Below, in pieces: positions 8,117 to 27,082 of a stretch of 64,000 bases of DNA. How positions within the stretch are numbered: position 1 is the stretch's first letter; each line of letters begins with the position of its first letter. A model generated the notes under the pieces. The model did no database searches and was not told the origin of the DNA. It saw nothing but the letters and a program-made list of their open reading frames with translations. The position numbers and the translations under genes were made by a program. Where the stretch lies: positions 52,877,592-52,941,591 of the forward strand of contig CM055097.1 in the NCBI GenBank assembly GCA_029204225.1, in the 5' to 3' direction. Source of the stretch: Diphasiastrum complanatum (taxonomy: Eukaryota; Streptophyta; Lycopodiopsida; Lycopodiales; Lycopodiaceae).

Positions 8117-9386
<1,270 letters not shown>

Positions 9387-10392: not shown

Positions 10393-10695
10393 ATGACCAG
10401 AAACCGCAGGTCTAGGAAGGATATAGACCTAAATCTGAAGAGAGGGAATATTAACCTAGGTCAAGCCCTAGAGAATCTTAAATTGGAAATAGGGCTCTGG
10501 CAAATAGTACAGTTGTCACCCACTATTAAACGCACGGTTAAACGATTGATGAGACCACCCACGACCAGAACACTGGAGCCACCTACAATAGGGAAAGTAG
10601 ATGCAAATTTGTTAGATCGCTACTGCCCTAAGGTAGATGTACTCATAGATGGCCTAGTCATTTCAGGGGCCATAGTTGATGCAAGGTCGGTATAA
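10393..10695 (+). pseudogene. Ty3/gypsy gag-protease fragment
   Basis: A 100-codon plus-strand frame ends in PKVDVLIDGLVISGAIVDAR. This has the shape of a retropepsin N-terminal half, where V-x-V-x-I-x-G leads to the catalytic D-[ST]-G. The catalytic triad here reads DAR, so activity is lost. It lies 1 kb downstream of a gypsy-like PBS in the same orientation, consistent with one decayed element whose gag is unreadable. It could also be chance similarity, since no RT follows. Confidence 0.45.
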
Positions 10696-11034
10696 AGTCC
10701 TAAACACATGATTTTAGTCCAAGCATATCATACAAAGCAACCACACATCCCGCAAAAAGGCCTAAAGTCCTTTTATTAACTTTTAACTGATCAATCAAAT
10801 AACTATGTGATCATTGGGTTGGACTTACACACGTAGGGTGCCAAATCCCTCTCACTTATTAGCTAGGGTTAGGGTTGTCTTGGGATCCGCAAACCCTCCA
10901 ACAACCGTGCTTTGTCTTTTACCACCAATTTCTTCTTACTCTTCTTTTTCTTTGACTGTTGGTATGCTCTGATACCAATATAAAGTCCTAAACACAAGAT
11001 TCTAGTCTAAGCATATCATACAAAGCAACCACAC
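10691..11034 (-). repeat. Nested LTR fragments with direct repeats and a tRNA-Met PBS
   Basis: Bases 10691-10747 and 10979-11034 are near-identical direct repeats (TATAAAGTCCTAAACACA...ACCACACA). Between them, 10748-10903 matches 23881-24036 along its whole 156-bp length; on the minus strand both copies begin TGTTGGAGGG. On the minus strand, a tRNA-Met PBS (TGGTATCAGAGC, 10977-10966) follows the 10979 repeat end. This indicates remains of minus-strand LTR element(s). Confidence 0.6.
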
Positions 11035-11472
11035 ATGGGAACCGGTGGAGGTTAAACCAACCCAACCAAACCTAGATCGTATGGATCTAGCCCCCAAGCT
11101 ATGAATCAATCAGAGTCATGGAAAGAGGAGTCACACCAGCAGCATGTAGCTACTCATCACAAATCAAGCATACACTAGTGAGAGCCCAGCAAGTATACTT
11201 ATACCCTCCAAGGCCCATGCACCACTAGTTGTGCACTCTGACACCTCACTGGACACCTCTGCAGCCTATCGGGGCCACGTCATCCAGCTCCCTAATGACT
11301 CACCGATAGACCCATACCAACTCCACCACCATGTGTTTAGGCCTACAATCATTAAGTATGACCATGTACACATAAGGGCTCCAATTCCCTTATAGTCACA
11401 ATTAACTTACGGGTTGTTGGTCTACCGGTCCCTAGCGTGGACACGCTACCCGAGACCAGTCATGGGCATGAC

Positions 11473-11489
11473 ATCATTACAGGAGTTCT
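11473..11489 (+). repeat. Left terminal inverted repeat of the 9-kb element
   Basis: ATCATTACAGGAGTTCT differs by one base from the MITE left terminus at 2243. It is similar over 15 bp to the reverse complement of 20524-20510. Confidence 0.6.
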
Positions 11490-11808
11490 CAAACTTAGAA
11501 GGGCCGTTTGTTACGAGTTTTTTTTTCCTCTCTGTTTATGTCAATGTGGCCCAATCGATTCTTGACATAGTGGCTTCTATCTAACATAACTCGCCTGACC
11601 CGGAAAACACAATTCATATTTGGGCAAATTTGAATTTCCGATCCGGTAGATTGGAAGCATACTATTGGCTGGCATGCGCAACGACTGGTTGACTAAACTG
11701 CCTGGGTTAACCTGAAGTTAAAATTATCTTGGGACTTACAAATAGGTTTGGTGCCTATTATACTTTGGACTCTCAAATTGACGAGTTCAAACGTGAACTT
11801 TTCAAGCT

Positions 11809-13156
11809 ATGGCGATGAGAAGGAGACCGAGATCCTTGATATGCTCTGCAATTTTTTATAATGAGAGGGAAGACGATGGCACATGGATTGCTCGAGAATA
11901 TCATAAGGCTTCTTGGGTACTGATGCATCCATCGGTGAGAGGGGCTTTTCGCCAAAAGAAAAAGGCCAAGTATACATATAGATCTTATTGGAAAGGGCGG
12001 ATTATTGATTTCAAAGTTTCTCCAAGAGGACAAACCATTTCAGAGGTGCTTATTCAACATGTTTATATGCATTCAGAACTTAATGTGGAGGCTATAAATC
12101 CACATGATTTTCGAAAGTGTAATTGTAAGTATCTTAATTTTTTGGATTGCTTGTCATTTTTAGAACGTAATCGTATTTATGAATTGGAGCTTATTATGAT
12201 TTTGTATTGTAGATCTATATCCTTCAAATACACATGAATGGGAACCTGTGGCGTCTCTTTCTCGTATTATAGATGTCATCCATTCAGAAATTGGCAAATT
12301 GCAACACAGAGGACGAACGACAAAAGAACTTGCAGATTCTGAAATATTTTTTTATGATGCTATGTATATTCCAAACACAAATGGAGGAATGGAAAAACTA
12401 GAGTATATACCTCTACCTAATTTTTAAGATAACATGTGGTGGATTGCAGTCAACGACAATATAATAAAATGCTTTCGTTCCAAGCTATATAATGATGTAC
12501 AAAAGTCACTCAAAACTAGTACAAGATCAAGAAATGTGCACTTAAGCTGGTTTGTTCCAATGTCATTGTTTGTCAGCTCTTTTTCAAACACGGAAGTGCA
12601 TCAAACTCTCACATTGTTTGTTTGCAAAAATCTTTCAGATGATTTTTTTATTTAAATTCATGGACAAAGGTTGGGATATAAGATCCACTGCAGATATTTC
12701 TTGTAGAATCAAACATTCATCCATATCATTTAGATACAGTATAGAAAAGCAAATGCTTAGTATGATGTTTCATTATCAGAGATGGAATTAACACAATGGT
12801 ACTCGGGCCCCATTAGATCAAGATCTAGATAGCATTGGACACACTGATCGTATAGGCATTGATATCATGGCAAATGGGGATTTACTTACTACTATTGAGG
12901 TTGAGCAAGACTGGACCTTATTCTACATTAGAATGGAACTGACACTTTTACAGCAAGATATCCCCAAATATTTCAACTTTATATTGGATGGAGAATTGGT
13001 ATGTAAAATCCATGAATTTGTATATTAATTTATATCCATTATCCTTTTTGTCAATATTCGGATCACTAACTGTAATCTGATTAATGTATGTCTGTGTAGA
13101 TACGTAAAAGACATGAAGAGAAAATCAAATGCAAAGATTTGGGCAGAATTGTTTAG
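11809..13156 (+). pseudogene. Element gene D: unknown protein, possible ubiquitin-like C-terminus
   Basis: Exons can be followed at 11809-12124, 12213-12998 and 13100-13156 with good GT/AG borders. At the first border, AAT T joins AT to restore Tyr. The middle exon carries a stop at 12425-12427 and at least two frame changes near 12650-12790. The start is uncertain, because upstream sequence (about 11,700-11,810) reads as coding in other frames. Exon 1 is basic (AFRQKKKAKYTYRSYWKGR). The last about 60 residues, with LTLLQQDIPKYFNFILDGEL and then RKRHEE, have a spacing reminiscent of a ubiquitin-like fold; this is an impression only. I do not recognise a family. It converges on gene A and is probably an accessory protein of the element. 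Confidence 0.5.
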
Positions 13157-13352: not shown

Positions 13353-15163
13353 TTACAGCTCAAAGTAGTATGGATTATCTCCACCTTGCACTAGTGTCAG
13401 TTGTGGACTTGATTGGCCTCCCGTTTCCATAGCTGGACTGGGTGTTGCATGAGATAATAAGTTCACCAACATCTGTTGATGAAACTCATATATCTCATTC
13501 ATTGAAAATGCTCGACATTTATACTGCAAATCCAAAAGAATCGGGTCAATTGACTTATCAAAAACCAAATCGAAGATAACTTAGTTAGGCCATTCACTAG
13601 TCTATTTACCTTTCGTATATCTGGAGCCCCGGATTGCATGATGTACCACTCTAAAAAGTCCTGTACACTGCGGATGGAGAACCATCCATAGCTATGTCCA
13701 TCCTCTTGCTGAGCTGACTTCAATCACAAAACCTATAATAGGTTAGTTGTGCACTCTGGAAAAAACAGATCATATTACCTATCAAATACTTTATGAGAAA
13801 TACTTACTTCTGCATCAACAATCTCCAGGTGGCTATTTACAGTGGCCCCATCCGGCCTTGGCAAAAATGGCAACATTCTGCTATACATCACGTCCATTTT
13901 GACATGGGTAGACTTTTTTATGGGATTAATGATCCCATCTAAATCTTCCCTAAGGGAGATTATATGCATACTCCAATGCTTATTGCAAACAAGAGATAAT
14001 TAGTCAAACTAAAGGAATTACAATACCTATCAAAAATATTACTAGAATATATTCTATGTAATCACTTACTTTTGGCAGTATCAAATAATAAAGACTTTGG
14101 TCTCCGAGGTTGTATGGAGAAGATACTTCGTCGCCTTAGTTGGACTATGAAGGTTGTGTGCGAAAAAGGACAACACAACTCCAATGTCCTTAGTATCATC
14201 GCATTGACATCTATTTACAAAATACATCAAACCAGCCTCCACAACTAGATATGATATATCTGAGGTCTTCTCCTCCAGGGCATCACAAAAGTCTTTATTT
14301 ATGTGATTTATATAATTAATTGAACTTAGAAAAAAAGAAAATTGACCTCCTAGCTTGTCAATTTCTTTGGCAACATACTCATCAAAAATTATTTACCTCT
14401 CAGAATCCAAAAATGAATCTTTGGGATCAACAGGAAATCTTACACAAAGATCCTTATAAAAATCACCTATTAAACTTAAATCTAGATCCGATATTATTCT
14501 ATCTACAGTCGAGTTCATTTCCTTGTTATTGTGGGATGGAATGGAGGGAATGGAAGAGGAACTACTTGAATAGTTAGGGGTGGTGGGAGGAGAAGAAGGC
14601 ACTGCAGAATGGTGTGACGGTCCAACCAAAGCACGAGAGATGTGAGGGGGGGATGGTGATTCGCTGAGTACCACCCTTTGCTTGGCAGGCCTGGTGGGCT
14701 TGGTCTGCTTCCTCCTTCTTCATTGAGGAACAGGACCTCTCTCTGTAGGTGGTGGCCTAGAGGTGAAACCACTCTTAAAGACCTGATCATATGTACTCCT
14801 CAGCCTCATGACAAGATGCATGTCCTGAGGCATGAGGGTAACTCTCTTTGCGTGCACTGTGCAAAGCGTGGAGTCCTCAAAGAATTTGACTTGGAAGTCC
14901 TCATAGGCAGTATGGAGGGCTTCCAGGGCTATTATGTTCTAGCGAACATCATGTGAGAGCGACCTTGTTACCAGTCTCACAGATCTGTAGAAAGGAGCAT
15001 AGGGAATCAGAAGATCCGTGGTCCTTTAAAGTCTCCTGATATCCCTTAACCATGGTCTTCCGGGCCGACCTACTCTCCTACCAGTGCCCACTGCCCTTTG
15101 TAGAGGAGGGCGAGGAGGCGGGGCAAATGTGGTAAGGTGGGCTGTCTGCTTGGTACGGACCAT
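13353..15163 (-). pseudogene. Element gene A: histone H3/CENH3-like domain fused to C48 (ULP1-like) protease
   Basis: Five exons: 15163-14397, 14324-14070, 13978-13808, 13717-13610 and 13523-13353 (TAA), about 490 codons. Residues 1-9 read MVRTKQTAH, like an H3 tail. Residues about 33-122 follow the histone fold: RPGRPWLRDIRRL, TTDLLIPYAPFYRSVRLVT, and FFEDSTLCTVHAKRVTLMPQ before MHLVMRLR. The LLIP..PF..VR pattern is closer to plant CENH3 than to canonical H3. A Ser/Pro-rich linker follows (about 150-225). The C48 part has the catalytic His in HWSMHII (residue 342) and QQEDGHSYGWF (401-411), where the expected nucleophile Cys is Tyr408. In-frame stops fall at codons 46, 75 and 148. One missing base near 14,110 restores phase across exon 2. 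Phases join only if it is one gene, which supports the fusion. Confidence 0.75.
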
Positions 15164-15994
15164 TGCAAGGTAGGGTATCGATATGACGCGCCAAAAGGCA
15201 TGTAAAGCAGGTATTCGACAGGGGAGCACGTGATAGCGATATGAGTGATGGCATATCGCCACGACGTGTGGGCGGGCCAGCTGTACTGGTATGTGGGTCC
15301 TTTGGCACATGGTAGCGATATGTGTCTAACGGGGAGTGGAGGTGAACGAAGAAAACTAAGGAGAGCCAGAGAACGAAGAATTAAGAAACTAAAATAAGAC
15401 CCAAAAACATCCTTTTATACCTGTAGAACGTCCCATCATATTCGCACGTTCGATGTGACACCTCCACTCCCCGCACGTGTGGTCACACGCATCCGTCACG
15501 TGTCAAAATATTAGCGGTTCGTACGATCAGATGGCTGGCATGACGTACGAGGACACATGGCGACATCTGGACCACACACTTGTCAAAAGATGATTGGGGC
15601 GTACAATAGTACAGTTGGCATGCACGTGCGAGGACGCGTGTCAGGATCCGAAGTGTACACGTGTCATTCAGAATGATTTTGTCGTCGTTTCCACACGTGT
15701 GGCAATTTTGACCGAAGGTTACTTAGACACGTGTACGGTTCAGATGATCTGTATTAGACTATATATATGAGTGTTGTTTCTGTAATTCAGTTTTGCATAT
15801 TGAGTCCAATTTACTGGCCCGCTCCAAATTTGTTTGTACAATATCGCTACCACGCGCCCAGCAAAGACATCCATAGTTGCACTGATTCCCTGGCGCGTGG
15901 TTCCGATATTCGGATTCGCGTACAATGCGTATCGCCATCACACGCCCACTCTTACCTCGTTTATGTCCCCTGCTAACTGGTGCGTCATATCGAT
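15164..15994. promoter_or_regulatory. Divergent promoter between genes A and B, CACGTG and ATATCG clusters
   Basis: CACGTG occurs at 15227, 15474, 15497, 15623, 15658, 15694 and 15728, six of them within 260 bp. ATATCG/CGATAT occurs in two flanking groups. One group is just upstream of gene A (15179, 15237, 15253, 15316). The other is just upstream of gene B (15841, 15904, 15987-15996), including the palindrome CATATCGATATG that overlaps the gene B start codon. A TATA-like ACTATATATATGAG lies near 15,757 for gene B. CACGTG is the core of plant bZIP/bHLH sites. The ATATCG sites may be bound by an element-encoded factor (inference). Confidence 0.65.
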
Positions 15995-17513
15995 ATGGCC
16001 TCCTCGTCTGCTAGTTTGATCTATGATAAAGCTCTTAGTTCTTTCCTAGTTGATGATGAGGTTAGTGACAGACAGGCCCATTTTTTTGTCCTATTTCGAT
16101 TGACATAGAGAGATTTGTTATTGAGCACAAGAAAATTTTTCCTAAACTGTACAAGGATTTTTATGAGTGCTTGCAACAGGGTACCCTTCTGATGGACGGC
16201 CTGAGATTTGTGCATTTCACAGATTTGGCTCATGCTCAGCCAAGTGCCAAGCAAAGGCATGATCGTAAGTTTATCAAACTTATCGATCTGTTTAAACATG
16301 TCATACCCTGTGAGGAACACAATCGAGTATGTCACTTTGTTCAAGAGGGTATGGCCTTCGTGTTTTTCTTATTTGCTCTTATCCCTGATGAGGCAGAATC
16401 TTCTGGGTTGTCCATGATTGGTTTGCCTGCCCCTACTACTCGTGTGGCTTCAGAGGTTTCCATTACTGATGAGATTTTAGGAGATGTAGAGGAGGCCAGG
16501 CAAGCAGAACGATATGATCCTGCCAAGGCTCGTTCTCTGTCTATCTCTCCGTTATCTACCGCGAGCGAGATTGACCAGAGCAGAACCCTGATGGACCTCC
16601 CTGTATACCATATGGACGATGTTGCATTCTTATCCATTAGCGACATCGGAGACGTAATGGATCTCAGAGAAGATGAGATATTATCTCTTATGTCAAGGAT
16701 GATTTCTGAATTTAAAGATTTTATTGACTTTGATGATGATGACCTCATAGATGGCATCGACTATGAGGACCAGGTAGAATGGGCAAGTGGCACAGATGCC
16801 CTTCAAAGGATGCTATCTAAAAGTAGGGCATATGAGGCTAATATGCCCAGTGAGGAGGAGTTTTTGGCTTTTCAAAAAAAGTATATCCCACATATACTAT
16901 TCCAGCTGACCAACAATCCACCATTATTGCTGGTCACAATTTAGATGCTGCTGGTATGATCCAAGCTGACGAGGAGGATTTGGTAAGTACACCTTCTCAC
17001 GAAAATCATTTATTATTTAGCGTGTAATTGATTATTGATCTGCTAGTTTGACTAACACTTGATTATGTGCTGTAGGATATCATTGAAGTTGATGCCTTTG
17101 CTAATAGGCATGGAGGATTGAGAGAGAGACAAGGCGGGAGACAGAAGGATGCCTCGTTGGCTCATTATTTGAAACATTTTTTAAATAGCAAAATTTGTGT
17201 TCTTCATGAAAGGTTTTTTGTGAATGCGAGAACTTTAATCATGGCCATGAAGGCCCTATCTTATTTTGCCCAAAGGCATAAATACCCAAAAAATACACAT
17301 AGAATCATTTTTGTCAAAAGAGATGCTGCTCTTAAAGTGTTTAATTACGTGCTAGAAAATGTTCTTATGAGATCCTCTGCTCTGGCAATTCTATCAGGAT
17401 ATATAGATTTGAGCAAAAGGCGATCCACTCGATTTTTGGATCCGTATGATAGGAAAAAGCTCCTTCATGACCACGCAACAAAAATTGTCCTTAGAGACAA
17501 TGAAAAAAAATGA
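15995..17513 (+). pseudogene. Element gene B: unknown acidic protein
   Basis: Two exons (15995-16982 and 17076-17513) have a clean TTG|GTAAGT donor and TGTAG|GAT acceptor, giving about 470 residues. The ATG at 15995 (MASSSASLIYDKALSSF) opens the frame nearest the divergent promoter. Two homopolymer frameshifts break exon 1: a T7 run near 16,080 and an A7 run near 16,880. The middle is very acidic (IDFDDDDLIDGIDYEDQ, about 16,725-16,780). Exon 2 is basic (GGLRERQGGRQKD near its start; KKLLHDHATKIVL near its end). I recognise no domain. It diverges from gene A and converges on gene C, so it is likely a structural or regulatory protein of the element. Confidence 0.55.
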
Positions 17514-17660: not shown

Positions 17661-20250
17661 TCAAACTTGAGCTCGTCTATAAAACCATTGGAATAGCTGA
17701 ATAATGTAACTATTTTTTGAGGATGTTCCACCATGTTGCGTATTTCGATGAAATGTTGCTCTTGCCTGCCAATGTGATTTCTTTAGTCCTTGTGAAGACC
17801 ATATACTCAAACTGCCATACTTTTTTGCAAAAAATGATGCATGATGCCTTAGTATGTGCTGCAATATCAAAGATTTATGCATTGGTTAGAATCTATCAAG
17901 CAAGTTATATTAAAATTATAAAATTGTAAGACACTGTTCAAATGTATCTTACCATGTAGTGGGTGATGTGATCTGAGCCCCAAGCCACCCGAACTGCATC
18001 TACAAACTCTATTGATGTTTTCTCCAATAGGAGTGCATCTGCAAATGAAATTGTGTCTTTTCTAAGCACTTCAATCATATTATCAAGCTTTTTCCAAACT
18101 TCAACCTTCTTCACCCTTGTTGTTCCTTTATCTTCAAAGTCTTTTGTCGCAAAAATAACATCTTTCCAAACCGAATATTGGATCTTAGACGACTTTTTAG
18201 ACTGATTTGATAAAAATTGACGAGCTTTGACTCCTTCTATGCTAGGTTTATTGGATACGTTTCCTGTTTTTCCCGAAAGCTTTTCATCTTTTTGTATTTT
18301 AACATGGCCTTTATGAAGGCCTGCTTTTGACAACACTTCCTCTAATCGAGCGATTGCTTGTTTTGATGCTGACTCTAGCCTAGTATTCCATGCAAACAAG
18401 ATATGAAGATATATTAATTTCTCTATGATCCTCACCTCTCCATGAAGTGTGCAAATATGCACATTTTGTAAAGGGATTGCTAGTACTGGTTTCCAATTGG
18501 GATCTTCAATATCTCTTGAAACTCTTGTGTTTCTTGAAATGTCATTAGATGATTTCATACAATATAGACATGGATGTTTCGAATTTGCTCCATGAGATAC
18601 ATTGAACATACATTTCAATGACTTCAAGTCTCTAGCTAAATGCCATTCCACCAAAAATTCACCTCTTTTAGGAACACTAAGTACTTTGCCATTCATATGA
18701 TCCTTTATGATATCTGGATAACTTGTTCTGCTAAAAATCCAGGAAAGAACATTGTGATCCTCCTTGATAACCTGTTCAACATATGGAATCACAAGTTTTT
18801 ATGTATTCGAAACAATTACCAAAAGAAATTGTACATGAATAACAGCCACCTGAAAACATCCTAGCCACCATATGTTGTTTTCTGATTGCACACTGAAGTT
18901 GAGATCCCTTGAGTTTGTTGCATTGTTCAATGCTCCATTCATGAGAGTAATACTTACTCTTTCCAACTTTTGTCCTTTTATAACTTCCGATTCATCTAGC
19001 TTGACCACCAGAATAAGTTTGCTCATACTAACACTTGTAATATTATAGAATTTCACTATAAATCTCAATAAATTATTCAAATCCACAAATAAGTTGTTGG
19101 TAGAATTATATGACAGATTGCCAGACTTTGAATTGTAAATCTCATTGATGTGAAAAGGGATTCCAATGACATTTTGCATACCCTTATTCAATACATCACT
19201 CTCCAATCTTATCTAAAAAGGGCGAGGAATGGGAAATTTTCTTACATGCAATTTTCCAAAAGCCTCTTTAATAATTTTAAATATACTGGCATATGACTCC
19301 CTGCTAATACCTGAGAAATCACATGCTCCCTGAATTAACGTTCGGTCGATTACCTTACCGACCTCATTCATCAAATCCTCAGTGACCTTGGACTTGATTC
19401 GAGAATACCGATTATTGTCCAATAAAGACTTTGTGGACTTGGTTGTCAATATCGAACTCAGTGATTTTCCGATCAGGTCATTGTCCTTCAGATGCTCATT
19501 TGCAACCAATGCTGATCTGCAAATGATTATGAAAATCAAGAAACCCAAATAGGACACATAATAAATGCCATGCTACTTCACAAAACTAAAATAAAACTAA
19601 TTCAAATCAAATCCTTACTTGAATGCTTGAATCCTTTTTCTCCGTTGGCCTCCATTTAGCGAAAGCTCACAATGTCCTTCAGAATTCTTTTTTGCTTGTT
19701 TCTTTTCAATTTCTTATCTAGTATGCAAGTTTCTTCTTTTAACTGGTCATTTGATATACGTAATGTCTGAACAACTTGTCGGAATTGATCATTACTTGCA
19801 TTCAAATTTAACATAATATTATGTAAACGTGCATTATCTTCTTTTGTTTGTAATAATGCGGTCTCTTTTTCTCTATAGTCAGCAAGTAAACCATTTAACA
19901 TACATTTTAAACTCTGTATTTTCTGAACCGAGTTTGCAACACCATAAGTCATCAATCTTTCACAATAACCCAATAAACCGTCTTCTCCGTCACACAAAAA
20001 CTTTATTAATTGTGTGATGGATTGGAATTGTGGAGCTCGGATCCAATGGATACAAACTTCCGTCAATCCACAAATCGTAATTCTTTCTTTGGTTGATTCT
20101 GTGAGCGATCATATTAAGTGGAGAAACTGTGGATTCTTTCACTACTCCTCTTTTAGCTATCGGAGCATTCTCGACAGGGAGAACAATGTGTAGATGAAAC
20201 TGAGACATCTCCGCAAACATCAGATGATAGACCAAAAAGAAAATAGACAC
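17661..20250 (-). pseudogene. Element gene C: DDE-transposase-like protein
   Basis: Four exons: about 20250-19619, 19516-18850, 18771-17953 and 17858-17661 (stop). All junction phases agree (AA|A, 0, 0). The N-terminal exon has a coiled-coil segment (about 19,740-19,900) and two frameshifts, near 20,045 and near 19,690 in an A-run. Candidate RNase-H-fold acidic positions are KLDESEVIKGQKLERV (exon 2) and EWHLARDLKSLKCMFNVSHG (exon 3), the latter followed by a CLYC zinc-like pair. Exon 4 has SIWSSQGLKKSHWQARATF, where related transposase-like proteins appear to have QGxEKxH; here the Glu position is Lys. Exon 2 has a TAG stop at 19213. The superfamily is not identified with confidence; KDZ/RAG-like clades are alternatives. 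Confidence 0.5.
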
Positions 20251-20509
20251 TATTATTCATCCATGACGTACTTGAGATTCTATGTTTATTCTCTCGCTAG
20301 TTAAAACGAGGGACACAACCTCATTTTCAAATTTGAAAAAGTTAGTTAATGAGCGTCATAGGTTCTTGAAGTTGCAGTTGCATACGTCATAATCGTGTCA
20401 TGTTAACTACACATTACTAGTAAGGTTAAGCTAAACTGGACATAGAAGTCCGTCGGAGTTTTAAAACCCAGCGTTTTTTTTTGTCCTACGTGGCATTTCT
20501 TAGGCGGCC

Positions 20510-20524
20510 AACTCCTCTAATGTT
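20510..20524 (-). repeat. Right terminal inverted repeat of the 9-kb element
   Basis: Read on the minus strand, 20524-20510 is AACATTAGAGGAGTT, which shares CATTAGAGGAGTT with both ends of the MITE at 2243-2622. Confidence 0.6.
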
Positions 20525-20651
20525 CTTCCCCCCTTATTCAAGTTCTGTCCTCATAACTTAAAACTGGGAAAGCTCCTCCTTAAGCTTCCTTCCTGTTCCC
20601 AGGAATCGTCATTGTTTGTACATCCCCTCCATCGGACCAGATGCTCGGTAA

Positions 20652-22066
20652 CTATACGATTTCTAAATCGTTTAGTTCTGTATCCAAGATCTTTTCGAGT
20701 TCAAGACAAGATACACCCGATGATTCATCCAACAAGTCCAACTGATCTCCAGATCCAAGATGCTCTCCTTCACATAGACTCTTTTTGAGATGACTAACAT
20801 GAAATACGGGATGCATTTGTGATCCATCCGGGAGTTCCAATTGGTAAGCTAAGGATCCGATCTTTTCCAAGATCTTAAACGGTCCTCTATATCTAGGGGA
20901 CAACTTATAATGCTTGTCGGTACGCATTACACTTGAATCCTTCGGGATTCTTAGATATACCCAATCTCCCACTTGGAAGCCTCTCGGTGATCTTTTCAGA
21001 TTTGCATAATGTCTGTCCCTATCCTGGGCACTCTGGACATTTTCACGTGCAATCCGTAGCATTTCCTGCATATCGTGTAGGAAATCCGCTACTTTTTGAA
21101 ACTTGATCATCCGAGTCTCAACCACAATGGGTGACCTAGGTTCAAAACTGTACATAAGCATAAATGGGCTATAACCAGTAGCTGAATGCTTACTACTATT
21201 ATAGGCAAACTCGATCAATGAAAGGTACTTTTCCCAATCAGATTGTCATTTGGAAACATATGCCCGAAGCATTTGTTCCATCGTCTGAATTGTTCTTTCC
21301 GTCTGTCCATCCGTCTCATGTGATCATAAGAACCCAAGCTCAGTGTCATCTCTAGTTTAGCAAATACGGCCGACCAAAAGTGACCGGTGAACTTCGGATC
21401 GTGATCCCTCACAATATCACTTGGTAATCTGTAAAGCCTAAACAGACGTTCTACAAATATCTGAGCTAAATTAGAAGCCTTCGCGGTGGTCCTTACCAGA
21501 ATAAACGTAGCCAATTTGGTAAGATGGTTGACCACAACCCAAATTGCATCATGCTGTTTATTTGTCCCCGATAACCCAACCATTGAATCCATGGAAATAC
21601 TATCTCATCGCTTATCAGGGATATCCAATGGATGCAACAAGTCACCCACCTTACGACGTTAAGCTTTATTTGACTGGCATTGGTCACACTTGACCACATA
21701 AGATTCTACAAAGGGCTTGAGTTTTGGCCAATAGAAATTCTTTCGTACCAAATCCAATGTACGATGTATGTCGGGATGTCCTGCACATGGTGAGTCATGA
21801 CATTCATAAAGAATTTTATTCTTAACAACATCCACATCAAGCACACAAACCTTCTCTTTCCTGAATAGAAGTCCATTATGGATAGAGAAGTCATCAATAC
21901 CCTTTATATCCTTCCCCCCAGACTGATCACCATGATCATCAGTCCCGCTTGATAAAACTGCTAGAACCCTATTCCAGATTGGTCCAAAATGTGGGTCTTT
22001 CTCATAAAGACCTCTCAGGGAGAGATAAAAGTCTGTACTGATCTCAGTGAAGGAAAGTTCGTTCAC
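20652..22066 (-). pseudogene. Gypsy-1 integrase, broken into several frames
   Basis: The HHCC zinc domain (HPDIHRTLDLV...KCDQCQSNKA, 21,659-21,800), the core block DHDPKFTGHFWSAVF (about 21,365-21,410) and the C-terminal PRYRGPFKILEKIGSLAYQL (about 20,845-20,905) are present. The segment carrying the catalytic Glu (normally in a DGQTER motif) is frameshifted near 21,300. A weak chromodomain-like tail follows (LELEKILDTELNDLEIV). Stops at 21659 and 21215 confirm a pseudogene. Confidence 0.9.
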
Positions 22067-23399: not shown

Positions 23400-24036
23400 A
23401 TGAATGGAGGATCTAACACTAACATCCATTAACACTAAGCATTAACACTACATCCATGAACCCTACTTCCATTAATCCTAAATCCACAACAATGATAGGA
23501 ACTTACTCTTTCTTTCTCTCCCTCCCTCTCTCTCACAATAAGCATAAAAAATAGCAATCCCAATAATGCTCAAATCCAACAATTAGCAAAATCCAAAGAA
23601 AGCATGAGAGATGGAAGAAAAGAGAGGAAGAGCAAGGACATTCATCAATCCATTTCTAAAGAGAACCAATCTGCTTTATTGAAAGGAGGTAATGAACATC
23701 AGGAGCAACTTGAGTTGGTCCCTTTTTATAGTAGAGAGGAGGACCCTGGCCTCTGAATTCTATTGGTCCAGTCTTGTCTCTTTTTTTATTCAAATTTAGA
23801 AAAGTGTGGGAACCATCAAAATTGGAGGGAGACCCAACTTTATTCACTAACTTGACATTTAGGCCCTGTGACATTAAAAGTCCCGCAAAAAGGCCTAAAG
23901 TCCTTTTATTAACTTTTAGCTGATCAATCAAATAACTATGTGATCATTGGATTGGACTGACACACGCAGGGTGCCAAATCCCTCTCACTCATTAACTAGA
24001 GCTAGGGTTGCCTTGGGATCCGCAAACCCTCCAACA
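23400..24036 (-). repeat. Minus-strand LTR with TATA box and polyadenylation signal
   Basis: On the minus strand the LTR begins TGTTGGAGGG at 24036, directly after a purine-rich GGTGGGGGATAC tract (polypurine-like). It carries TATAAAAAGG at 23730-23721 and AATAAAG near 23680. The lower edge is uncertain (about 23,400). Its first 156 bp recur at 10748-10903. It is probably the 3' LTR of the element encoding the ORF block at 24,087-26,950. Confidence 0.6.
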
Positions 24037-24086: not shown

Positions 24087-26950
24087 CTATTGGAGACTTT
24101 TATTGGCTTCGCGCCGAATCCTGATTAAATGATACTGCACCTTCTCCATAAAGTCGAGGCATGCTATATTGAAATCCAAATTGTGGGGTAGGAAACAACG
24201 GTGGGCTCCGGCAATCCACTTGGAGGTTGTCCATGAGGTGAAGTGGGATTCCCAAGAGCCTCCCATCATAGCCGCACAAAAGTAGAGACGAGCAGCCGAC
24301 AACTGATCTTTGATTTGCTCTGAGGCCATTGGCGTATTTGGATTGAATGCCAGAGGGGGGAGGCAATCGTCCCATTTGGTTGCCACTGATGCCAACAGAG
24401 TTAGATCTTTAGCAAACATTGTCGATTGTCGCACCGTTGGATCTGGAGAGTGGACATACTCTCTGTGATATGCTTGTAAAGCATGGTGGAAGTCCACTGA
24501 AATGGTCCAGCTGATGGATGATTGGCCAATATGGATGGTGATTTTGTCCATAGCCAACCCCAAATCTTTCCATTTATTTCTTCGCGGCATTGGCACATAA
24601 TAGCGCAACTGGCGAGGGCTGGCGATGTAACTCCTAATTGATTTCAGAGTTTTCTCAAAAATCGTGATTCTCCATGCTGGATGCTCTCCCAGTGCAGGTA
24701 TTTTGTCCAAATCTTTGTCGGCCTCAATCTTGGAGGTCTTAAATTTCAGAACCCATCCACCACGCGAGGACTCATGCGGATGTTGCTTTAAGAAGGTCTG
24801 GATCTGGTCCTCGACGCTAATGGGCCTTTTGAATAGAGGTCTTTTCCTTGATGAGGATGGACCTGCTTGTACTGCCGGTATGGTTGGCGGTTGATCTCCT
24901 ATATCTAGAGCTTCCCCTGGTCCATGCTCGAATTAATCCTTGTATCCATTGGTACAGCTTCTTGGCGCAGGGGGAAAAATTGCGACATGACCGGGATGGG
25001 GATTTGTGGTCCGGCTTCCAACACTTGAGCGGATGCTTTTTCATAGGCGGTGATGATCTCTTTTGCCTTGGCCAACTCGGTTGAAGCTGCTCCTTTGAAC
25101 CTATCAAAGCGGCCTTGGAATCCCTGAAGGGCCACTTTGTATGTCTCCACTTTTTTGAATAAATACGCAATCTCCGTCGGTGTGACCGGATGATCGGGTA
25201 TTTGCATTTGCAAATAGGCATGAAACTCAAGGGTGGTCGCATCCAATTCACCATGAAGCCGTGTGCGATCTTGTTCAGCCATCTGTAATTGCCCCTCCAG
25301 CAGCGGCACCTGTTGCTTGGCATCTTGCACTACTTGATCTACCTGATCTAGTGCGGTTGTCAAGGCGTTTTGTAGGGAGCTGATGTAGTTTTCCAAGCGA
25401 TCAGCTTGTTGCTGGGCCAACTGCTTTTCACTTTCAACCTTATCTTTATGTGGTTTGGCTATCTTCAGCTCTTGATCCAACTGGACAATTTTCTGGCTGA
25501 TCAGAGTGTTTTCGGACTCCAGATCAGAGATTCTCTGTTCCATTTTCTTCTTCTTATCCAGCATAGACTAGATCACTTGTCGTGGCGGCGGCAGCAGCAG
25601 GAGGACCTGATGGTACTGTCCTTGGTTGGCATGGAATAGGTGCCACGGTCTCTTCTTCTTAAAAAATATCCTCCTCTTCAAATCCTTCAGCCACTGTGGC
25701 GTCGAATTGTTTTGGTGATTTTACAGCTGTGTTGACCTGAAGTGTGGCTAGGCTACCTTGTGTGTGAGGTTTCTGGCTGGCATCTTCAACACCAATAGTA
25801 GATTCAGGATTGGGGTTCAAAGGGTGCTGGGCTCTGGAGCATTTCAAAGATTTTGGTGGCCCCAAGGGGGTCGGAATCATTGAAAATATCCATAAAGAGT
25901 TGTGTGTTGGATGAGGTGGCTTTGGTGTGCGGGAGTGAGGCGGCCTGGGTAGCTGTGATGGGAATGGTAGGCCCAATGGTCACAGACTGTCCTTGTATGG
26001 GAGCAGAGACGAGAGAAGCATCAGAGGCTACGGGGATGGGAAGTTCAGTGCAAACAACAGTAGGGGGTGGAAGCGCAACTGACGAGGTATGCCTAGTGCG
26101 ACGTCGTGACGCGGAAGGCGAGTCAGTAATTACGATCTCGCTGCGTGGATGATGACGACTATGAGAGCTTGAGGCCTGATGGGATGATTCTACCGGTGCT
26201 TCTTCATAGACCAAAAGCATAGAATCCAGGTGGGAGCCATGGATTCTGTTTTCTAAGTGAGAAGCAGCTAAAAGGGCCAATAAAGAGCCAGCAGCAAACT
26301 GCTGCTTAGTATTGGCCTTAATACTCGTTTGAGCTCACCAGAAACAGACTTGAACCAATTATATGGTTCAAGAGGGGCTTTGGCCAACTTAGTGTGGGAT
26401 TCCACTATCCTGTGAAGGATTTGAGATGTGATGCGGTCTTTTCTGAGGTTGCCAACCATCAGGAAATTATTCAATAGCTGGGCAACTGCGTGGATGGAAG
26501 GCTCAGTGATGGCTTCCAAAAGCTAGCCATCATTGGTCCAGTGCAGATCATTGGTGAGGTCAATAAATGGCTTGATGGCCTGTTTGGCGTGCTTGTGATT
26601 GGTGAGGCCTGTTTACCAGATGATATTCCTAGGGCTGCAAGGGCGGCCTCAGTGATGCGCACCTTGTGTGTGGCTCCCTGAAAAGTGATATAGAATTCAG
26701 ATTTCTCTTCCTTCCACGTACTAAAAGCAAGAGTGATGAAATCCATATTGATACGGCCCGAAAAGGCTCTCTCATGAATACCCATTGCAGTGAGTAGAGG
26801 CTCCGCAAGGGTCATCCACTGAGTGACCATGCTTGTGCTAGGAAGAATCATGATGTCCGTTGCAGATGGGACATCACGATGAATAGTATAGCGCGGAGAC
26901 TGAGAAGTATCGGTAGAAGACATGATGATCAGAAAAGGAATTATAAACAC
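24087..26950 (-). pseudogene. Retroelement-associated coiled-coil ORF block of unknown function
   Basis: Consecutive minus-strand frames (26950-26471, 26519-26268, 26280-25804, 25564-24905, 24710-24087) look like one broken ORF of about 900 residues. The N-terminal third is a globular domain (FSGRINMDFITLAFSTWKEE, then TEAALAALGISSG). A Ser/Thr/Pro-rich linker follows. A long heptad-rich coiled coil then begins LDKKKKMEQRISDLESEN (25,564). The C-terminal domain has WRITIFEKTLKSIRSYIASP and LPPLAFNPNTPMASEQIK. No enzyme motif is seen. It lies between gypsy integrase (upstream) and an LTR (downstream), the position of env-like or extra 3' ORFs in some plant gypsy elements. It could also be gag of a non-autonomous element. 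Confidence 0.55.
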
Positions 26951-27082
26951 GTAAAAGTGTATCAGAAGGCAATGCAGGAAATTTGGAAGGCTTTGGTCAC
27001 AAGAGCTTCGCTAGCACAAGTGAGGAATGAATCGAATTCAGCCAACTTATATGTGAATTTGGTGGGTCCATTACGCTGAATA

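Follow-up and report, generated by a model that had tools for sequence, protein, structure and literature searches.

The stretch of DNA analysed here, called the window in the following (64 kb), contains on its minus strand between 15163 and 13353 a gene that starts with a histone H3-like domain and continues in the same frame into a second coding block. We read it as a decayed gene of an unclassified mobile element, whose product combined an H3 fold, a linker and a C48-like domain and was tethered to chromatin, and we put the chances of this reading at about even. The copy itself is dead, since it contains in-frame stops, has no AG at its first acceptor and carries a Tyr at the position of the catalytic Cys; a full-length protein cannot come from this locus.

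Translation of the minus strand gives an MVRTKQTA start at 15163, and the same frame is kept to about 14070. Four exons were counted from the sequence (15163-14070, 13982-13808, 13732-13610 and 13523-13353), whereas the sequence-only reading had proposed five. Exon 1 comprises the H3-like domain (14795-15163, codons 1-123, with codons 46 and 75 as in-frame stops), a linker that is first basic and then rich in Ser and Pro (14519-14794, in the H3 frame, one stop at codon 148) and a remainder that runs from MNSTVDR to a GTAAGT donor (14070-14518, stops at codons 257 and 361) and sits within exon 1 ahead of the C48-like motifs, which gives five in-frame stops for this exon. Exon 2 (13808-13982), with KHWSMHIISL and, further on, HVKMDVM, has an acceptor without AG and a GTAAGT donor. 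Exon 3 (13610-13732, QQEDGHSYGWFSIRSVQDFLEWY) has kept the Gln, shows Tyr at the catalytic Cys position and probably contains a sixth stop in its third codon, if the TATTATAG acceptor marks its start. Exon 4 (13353-13523) follows a TTTGCAG acceptor and extends to the terminal TAA. A C-to-T origin of the stops was considered and dropped as uninformative, since any stop codon may arise in this way.

Introns 2 (GTAAGT..TATAG) and 3 (GTAAAT..TTTGCAG) are both well formed and of phase 0, but intron 1, with a GTAAGT donor, has no AG at the acceptor position that would keep the frame. The coherent splice phases described earlier are found at introns 2 and 3 but not at intron 1, and the restoration of one base invoked there is one reading of the missing AG, not a demonstrated change. 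In the same way, the supposedly clean frame from H3 to C48 does include the H3 start, alphaN, LLIPYAPF and FFEDSTLC.VHAKRVTLM segments but is interrupted by stops, and the HW and QQEDGHSYGW pieces are both present in the translated downstream exons.

Sequence comparison strongly supports a true H3-type histone fold in the first part of the gene. A query of the first 147 codons, with X written at the two stops, matched the Pfam Histone family (PF00125) over residues 21-122 (E=7.3e-22, 78.3 bits), above the curated cut-off of 26.4 bits, which bears out the fold as it had been proposed. In the PDB, the best match is an H3 chain (E=2.8e-23); 178 matches passed and all 60 of those listed are H3 types, which identifies the fold as H3-type rather than H4, H2A or H2B. 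In the protein database, the 147-aa query found three proteins within E 0.001 among 75 candidates: two from fish, annotated as 'histone H3-like centromeric protein A', and a hypothetical protein from Acnodon oligacanthus. An IMG/VR scan with the H3 part delivered no relative. Compared with reference histones, the core aligns to canonical plant H3 without a gap, and 49 of 87 aligned residues differ. The core identity amounts to 44% for Arabidopsis H3.1 and H3.3 (38/87 each), 48% for rice CENH3 (42/88), 45% for Arabidopsis CENH3 (40/89), 41% for maize CENH3 (36/88), 42% for human CENP-A (38/90) and 51% (43/84) for P0004, a 735-aa ENA protein.

Neutral decay to 44% identity was simulated in 500 runs, with a plant H3.3 assumed as ancestor and assumed indel:substitution ratios of 0.05-0.15. 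The simulation produced a mean of 5.1 stops in 133 codons, and two or fewer in 9.6% of the runs; the window has two in codons 1-122, and the stop count by itself is not decisive. For zero indels in the core, the number observed, the simulated probability lies between 0.003 and 2e-8. Since a core without indels at 44% identity is so improbable under simulated neutral decay, the result argues for a long evolution of the H3 part under protein constraint, followed by late decay, as far as the assumed ancestor and rates apply.

In the sequence-only reading the histone was taken to be of the centromere type. LLIPYAPF of the window H3 indeed resembles LLIPFAPF in the rice and maize CENH3 sequences (LLIP.APF). 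However, plant CENH3 starts with RTKH, whereas the tail of the window H3 begins with RTKQTA like canonical H3, and its loop 1 has the canonical length; the three plant CENH3 rows are one to two residues longer there. A longer loop 1 is common among CENH3s, according to a passage in PMC4628103. The site of the loop-1 tryptophan of CENH3 cannot be read in the window because the aligned codon is one of the stops. In a tree of 11 rows the window H3, on a long branch, falls outside a starred branch that unites the three CENH3 sequences of plants. With a loop 1 that is not elongated and the RTKQTA start, a CENH3 identity is not supported; judged by its sequence the histone is H3-like and is left without a finer assignment.

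The frame shared by the H3 part and the following block is open far beyond chance. The region 14078-15163 contains five stops, compared with a mean of 15.5 in best-of-three-frames dinucleotide shuffles, and not one of 2000 shuffles reached five. Codons 216-355 are strongly open alone (one stop against 10.6 in shuffles, with none of 2000 having so few), and this second block is clearly coding. Taken alone, openness is not significant for the H3 part (two stops versus 5.25; 165 of 2000 shuffles as low) or for the linker (one stop versus 2.9; 359 of 2000), and another reading frame of the linker has zero stops. The evidence for the H3 part is its homology and that for codons 216-355 their openness, and the join between them follows from neither by itself. 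A joining of the H3 part to the downstream exons in one protein is probable, since they lie in the same frame, promoter-like motifs precede the H3 start only, and splice sites are found downstream. Of the originally proposed fusion, the shared frame and the downstream splice sites hold up, but the linker is not significantly open. An AlphaFold2 model of exon 1, made without alignment, was uninformative (mean pLDDT 43).

Ulp1 proteases are characterized by the pattern Q-x5-C-G and by catalytic residues in the order His-Asp-Gln-Cys. Exons 2 and 3 encode KHW, then an Asp (in HVKMDVM) that follows the His of KHW at a distance of 28 residues, and finally QQEDGHSYGW, in which a Gln stands exactly six residues before the Tyr-Gly in place of Cys-Gly. 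His, Asp and Gln are present in the catalytic order and the Cys position is a Tyr, so the catalytic set is incomplete. The Pfam family PF02902 was matched below its cut-off (13.3 and 13.5 bits versus 20.7) by two of five joined cuts, with E 0.075 in one of three cuts and E 0.066 in one of two. These matches span exons 2-3, and PF02902 is the sole family that joined cuts matched. Neither of two single-exon pieces matched it, and one of them weakly matched DUF5402 (E 0.22). Four of nine shuffled controls hit a family within E<=10, three of these at E 0.02-0.04, and none matched PF02902. Because shuffles reach 0.02-0.04, an E-value of this size has to be taken as noise for any family that was not chosen in advance. 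Since C48 had been named before any search, the per-model chance can be used, which is about 3e-6 (0.07 / 24736 models, uncorrected for the several cuts) and makes the match suggestive.

Further searches covered the same half of the gene. A 212-aa piece over the 14070-14518 block and part of the linker matched no Pfam family, and the C48 half found no relative in the protein database among 7036 candidates (0.55-1.75 times the query length, E<=10), none in the PDB apart from one chance-level match to a Ryanodine receptor (E 1.2) and none in an IMG/VR scan. A NCBIfam search with three sequences, including gene D described below, gave no match. As the profile match is sub-threshold, the C48 assignment is based on motif and spacing: the order and spacing of HW, Asp and Gln agree with the domain named in advance, but the PF02902 score and the Tyr at the Cys position do not. 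A Ulp1/C48-type, protease-like nature of the downstream half is plausible, and the protease part may once have been active.

P0004, which matched the H3 part, has the fold in a different protein context. In a search with the 520-aa joined query against 7036 candidates of 0.55-1.75 times the query length, two, P0004 and P0005, matched at E<=10, both via the H3 fold and neither with a significant match to the C-terminal part. For the H3 region of this query, one of 45 candidates passed, again P0004. P0004 and the window H3 share WLRDIR, LLIPxAPFYRxVR and HAKRVTLMP.D.HL, and they pair in the 11-row tree with support 89/89, on a branch that is not starred and with a long window row. P0004 has no C48 domain, its first 600 residues matched no Pfam family at E<=1, and outside the H3 fold it showed no further significant similarity to the window. 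Whereas the H3 fold of P0004 is the C-terminal part of a long protein, in the window gene the fold is N-terminal and is followed by the C48-like part.

Upstream of the H3 start lies a divergent intergenic region of 831 bp with promoter-like character (15164-15994). Both start codons have TGGYGCGTCATATCGATA just upstream, the two copies mirroring each other (2 matches against 0.01 expected), and the last base of the plus-strand copy is common with the ATG. A ATATCGCTACCACGYGCC-like motif occurs four times in the region, three times on the minus and once on the plus strand (0.00 expected). With up to three mismatches allowed in both scans, neither motif was detected elsewhere in the window, which includes the stretch that leads from the H3 part to the C48-like exons. 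The region also contains an imperfect 100-bp palindrome (15646-15745, 67%) centred on CCACACGTGTGG, with more CACGTG-type sites nearby.

The divergent partner, gene A (15995-17513, plus strand), apparently consists of two exons, has a frame that is broken early and belongs to no known family; its two ORFs had no Pfam match. Gene C (about 11800-13030, plus strand) converges on the H3 gene and, by eye, consists of a basic N-terminal ORF and spliced-looking exons; the first of its ORFs gave no Pfam match above cut-off. Gene D (17938-19572, with 19656-20108 upstream, minus strand) converges on gene A and spans about 530 codons, interrupted by two stops. By eye, a DDE-type transposase is suggested by an HPCLYC segment together with Asp and Glu residues scattered along the sequence; searches with gene D found no Pfam family above cut-off and no PDB or NCBIfam match, and an IMG/VR scan with one of its ORFs no relative. 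Its AlphaFold2 model without alignment was uninformative (mean pLDDT 34). We propose that these three genes and the H3 gene form one element.

Gypsy- and Copia-type ORFs are located farther out from these genes, in DNA that is rich in retrotransposons. Between 11030-11800 and 19560-20660, terminal inverted repeats (TIRs) were in no excess over shuffles, and no target site duplication (TSD) of 3-10 bases was found at the listed repeat pairs, while the true ends may lie elsewhere. The neighbouring ORFs tested, decayed pieces in some frames, contained no hAT, CACTA Tnp2 or MULE transposase domain above cut-off, and the 64-kb window holds no second copy of the H3/C48-like gene. Because no TIR or TSD was found, we infer the earlier claim of a gene inside a mobile element from its neighbourhood, which makes it likely, although the expected boundaries did not exceed chance where they were searched. 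GGGCCGTTTGTTACGAG at 11501 was rejected as a terminus, its only other match (9231-9247, three mismatches) lying outside; a shorter GGGCCGTTTGTTACGAG form is no commoner than in shuffles and was rejected as well.

A 156-bp direct repeat (10748-10903 and 23881-24036) was also considered as marking both ends of a 13-kb element that would enclose the gene. Judged by eye, it is better read as LTR pieces of the neighbours, because both copies start LTR-like (TGTTGG, minus strand) and the right copy directly follows a G-rich tract that lies downstream of other ORFs. The left copy is flanked by 58-bp direct repeats (10691-10748 and 10979-11036, 95%); together these look like recombined LTR fragments, and they contain what we take to be a tRNA-Met-like primer site. 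On the right side, several minus-strand ORFs (24087-27010), including ones of 281, 220, 176 and 179 codons, are situated between a Gypsy-type integrase upstream and the LTR-like TGTTGG start at 24036, which comes directly after them. Two of them had no Pfam match at E<=0.01, and they might belong to a large Gypsy element as an additional ORF. Scans for tRNAs and Rfam families across the window gave no matches.

Under the reading proposed here, the gene would have been part of a multi-gene mobile element and would have had its promoter region in common with the divergent partner gene. Its product would have had an H3-type fold at the N-terminus and a Ulp1/C48-type protease-like domain at the C-terminus, connected by a basic linker rich in Ser and Pro. 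The histone fold might pair with H4 or a histone chaperone and in this way tether the protein to chromatin. There the protease could strip SUMO from silencing or repair factors in the vicinity of donor or target DNA, and this removal might ease expression or insertion of the element.

The same features can be explained in other ways. They might represent two neighbours, an H3-like gene with the TGA of codon 148 as its stop and a separate C48-like gene from a Met at about codon 216, which are in frame by accident. The TGA directly after the H3 part, the Met that opens the second coding block, and a linker whose frame is not significantly open while another is stop-free all fit such an arrangement. 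Against it, the gap measures only about 200 bases, promoter-like motifs occur solely ahead of the H3 start, the frames agree, as they would in one of three cases by chance, and the linker reads as basic and Ser/Pro-rich. We regard two separate genes as doubtful, yet as a serious alternative. A different objection concerns the downstream half, which could be an unrelated protein of the element and no C48 protease, leaving the H3 part as the only one identified. The profile match is sub-threshold, PDB and database searches found no relative, and shuffled controls reach similar E-values for other families; however, His, Asp and Gln are ordered, the Gln-to-Cys spacing fits, and PF02902 was the sole family of the joined cuts (two of five) and absent from all nine shuffles. 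We regard an unrelated protein as very unlikely.

It is also conceivable that a fragment of a host H3 or CENH3 was captured by a transposon (transduplication) and has decayed neutrally, without a role in the element. Fungal hAT elements offer a precedent, as their H3 captures were amplified and inactivated in Pseudocercospora fijiensis according to an excerpt of PMC6710886, and in-frame stops are present in the window gene too. A gap-free core at 44% identity, however, is rare under simulated decay with the assumed ancestor and indel rates, and we consider neutral capture unlikely; a recent capture of an already diverged H3 may have taken place.

The preferred reading, a decayed fusion gene of a mobile element, rests on a single ruined copy, which hints at a mobile element that employed a histone of its own in the past. 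As a more tentative extension, rather improbable at present, there might be a plant mobile-element family whose own diverged H3 is fused to a SUMO-protease-type domain and, under selection, carries the protease into nucleosomes; together with P0004 it would represent an unrecognised H3-fold lineage (LLIPxAPFYR) in large fused proteins outside the host histone genes. If intact relatives exist, a transposon protein would be both nucleosome component and deSUMOylase, acting on silencing from within chromatin, and the purpose of transposon-borne histones would become testable. If there are two neighbouring decayed genes, the locus would still add a further H3 in seemingly mobile DNA, apparently outside fungi.

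Histone genes in transposons have been described in fungi. Parts of PMC3538342 report hAT elements with histone H3-like genes (H3L) in Pyrenophora tritici-repentis, and parts of PMC6710886 similar H3 captures in Pseudocercospora, Cercospora and Sphaerulina, with hundreds of inactivated copies in P. fijiensis. As far as these parts go, the fungal elements have an H3-like coding region within a DNA transposon, as proposed here, but there the H3 is encoded separately, next to the hAT transposase and between TIRs, and the Pseudocercospora elements have 8-bp TSDs, whereas in the window no TIR or TSD was found. Moreover, the ORFs tested contain no hAT domain, the H3 is in frame with a C48-like part, and the neighbourhood, to judge by its retroelement types and gene style, is of plant type instead of fungal.

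The occurrence of C48 domains in some plant Mutator-like and CACTA elements, mentioned in the sequence-only reading, is in print: a section of PMC2528002 describes C48/ULP1 regions in both, and its reference list names van Leeuwen 2007 on Mutator-like elements. C48 peptidases are also noted for oomycete Cryptons in a portion of PMC3212892. The plant ULP1 elements have a C48-like coding region as in the window, but the passages on CACTA and Mutator-like elements mention no histone domain, and the window ORFs tested lack Tnp2 and MULE transposases. A histone-C48 fusion did not appear in titles or abstract starts among the matches listed for a few phrases in the open-licence PMC literature. Transposon-borne H3 in fungal hAT elements and C48 domains in plant transposons are thus already known; new is their fusion, if it is real.
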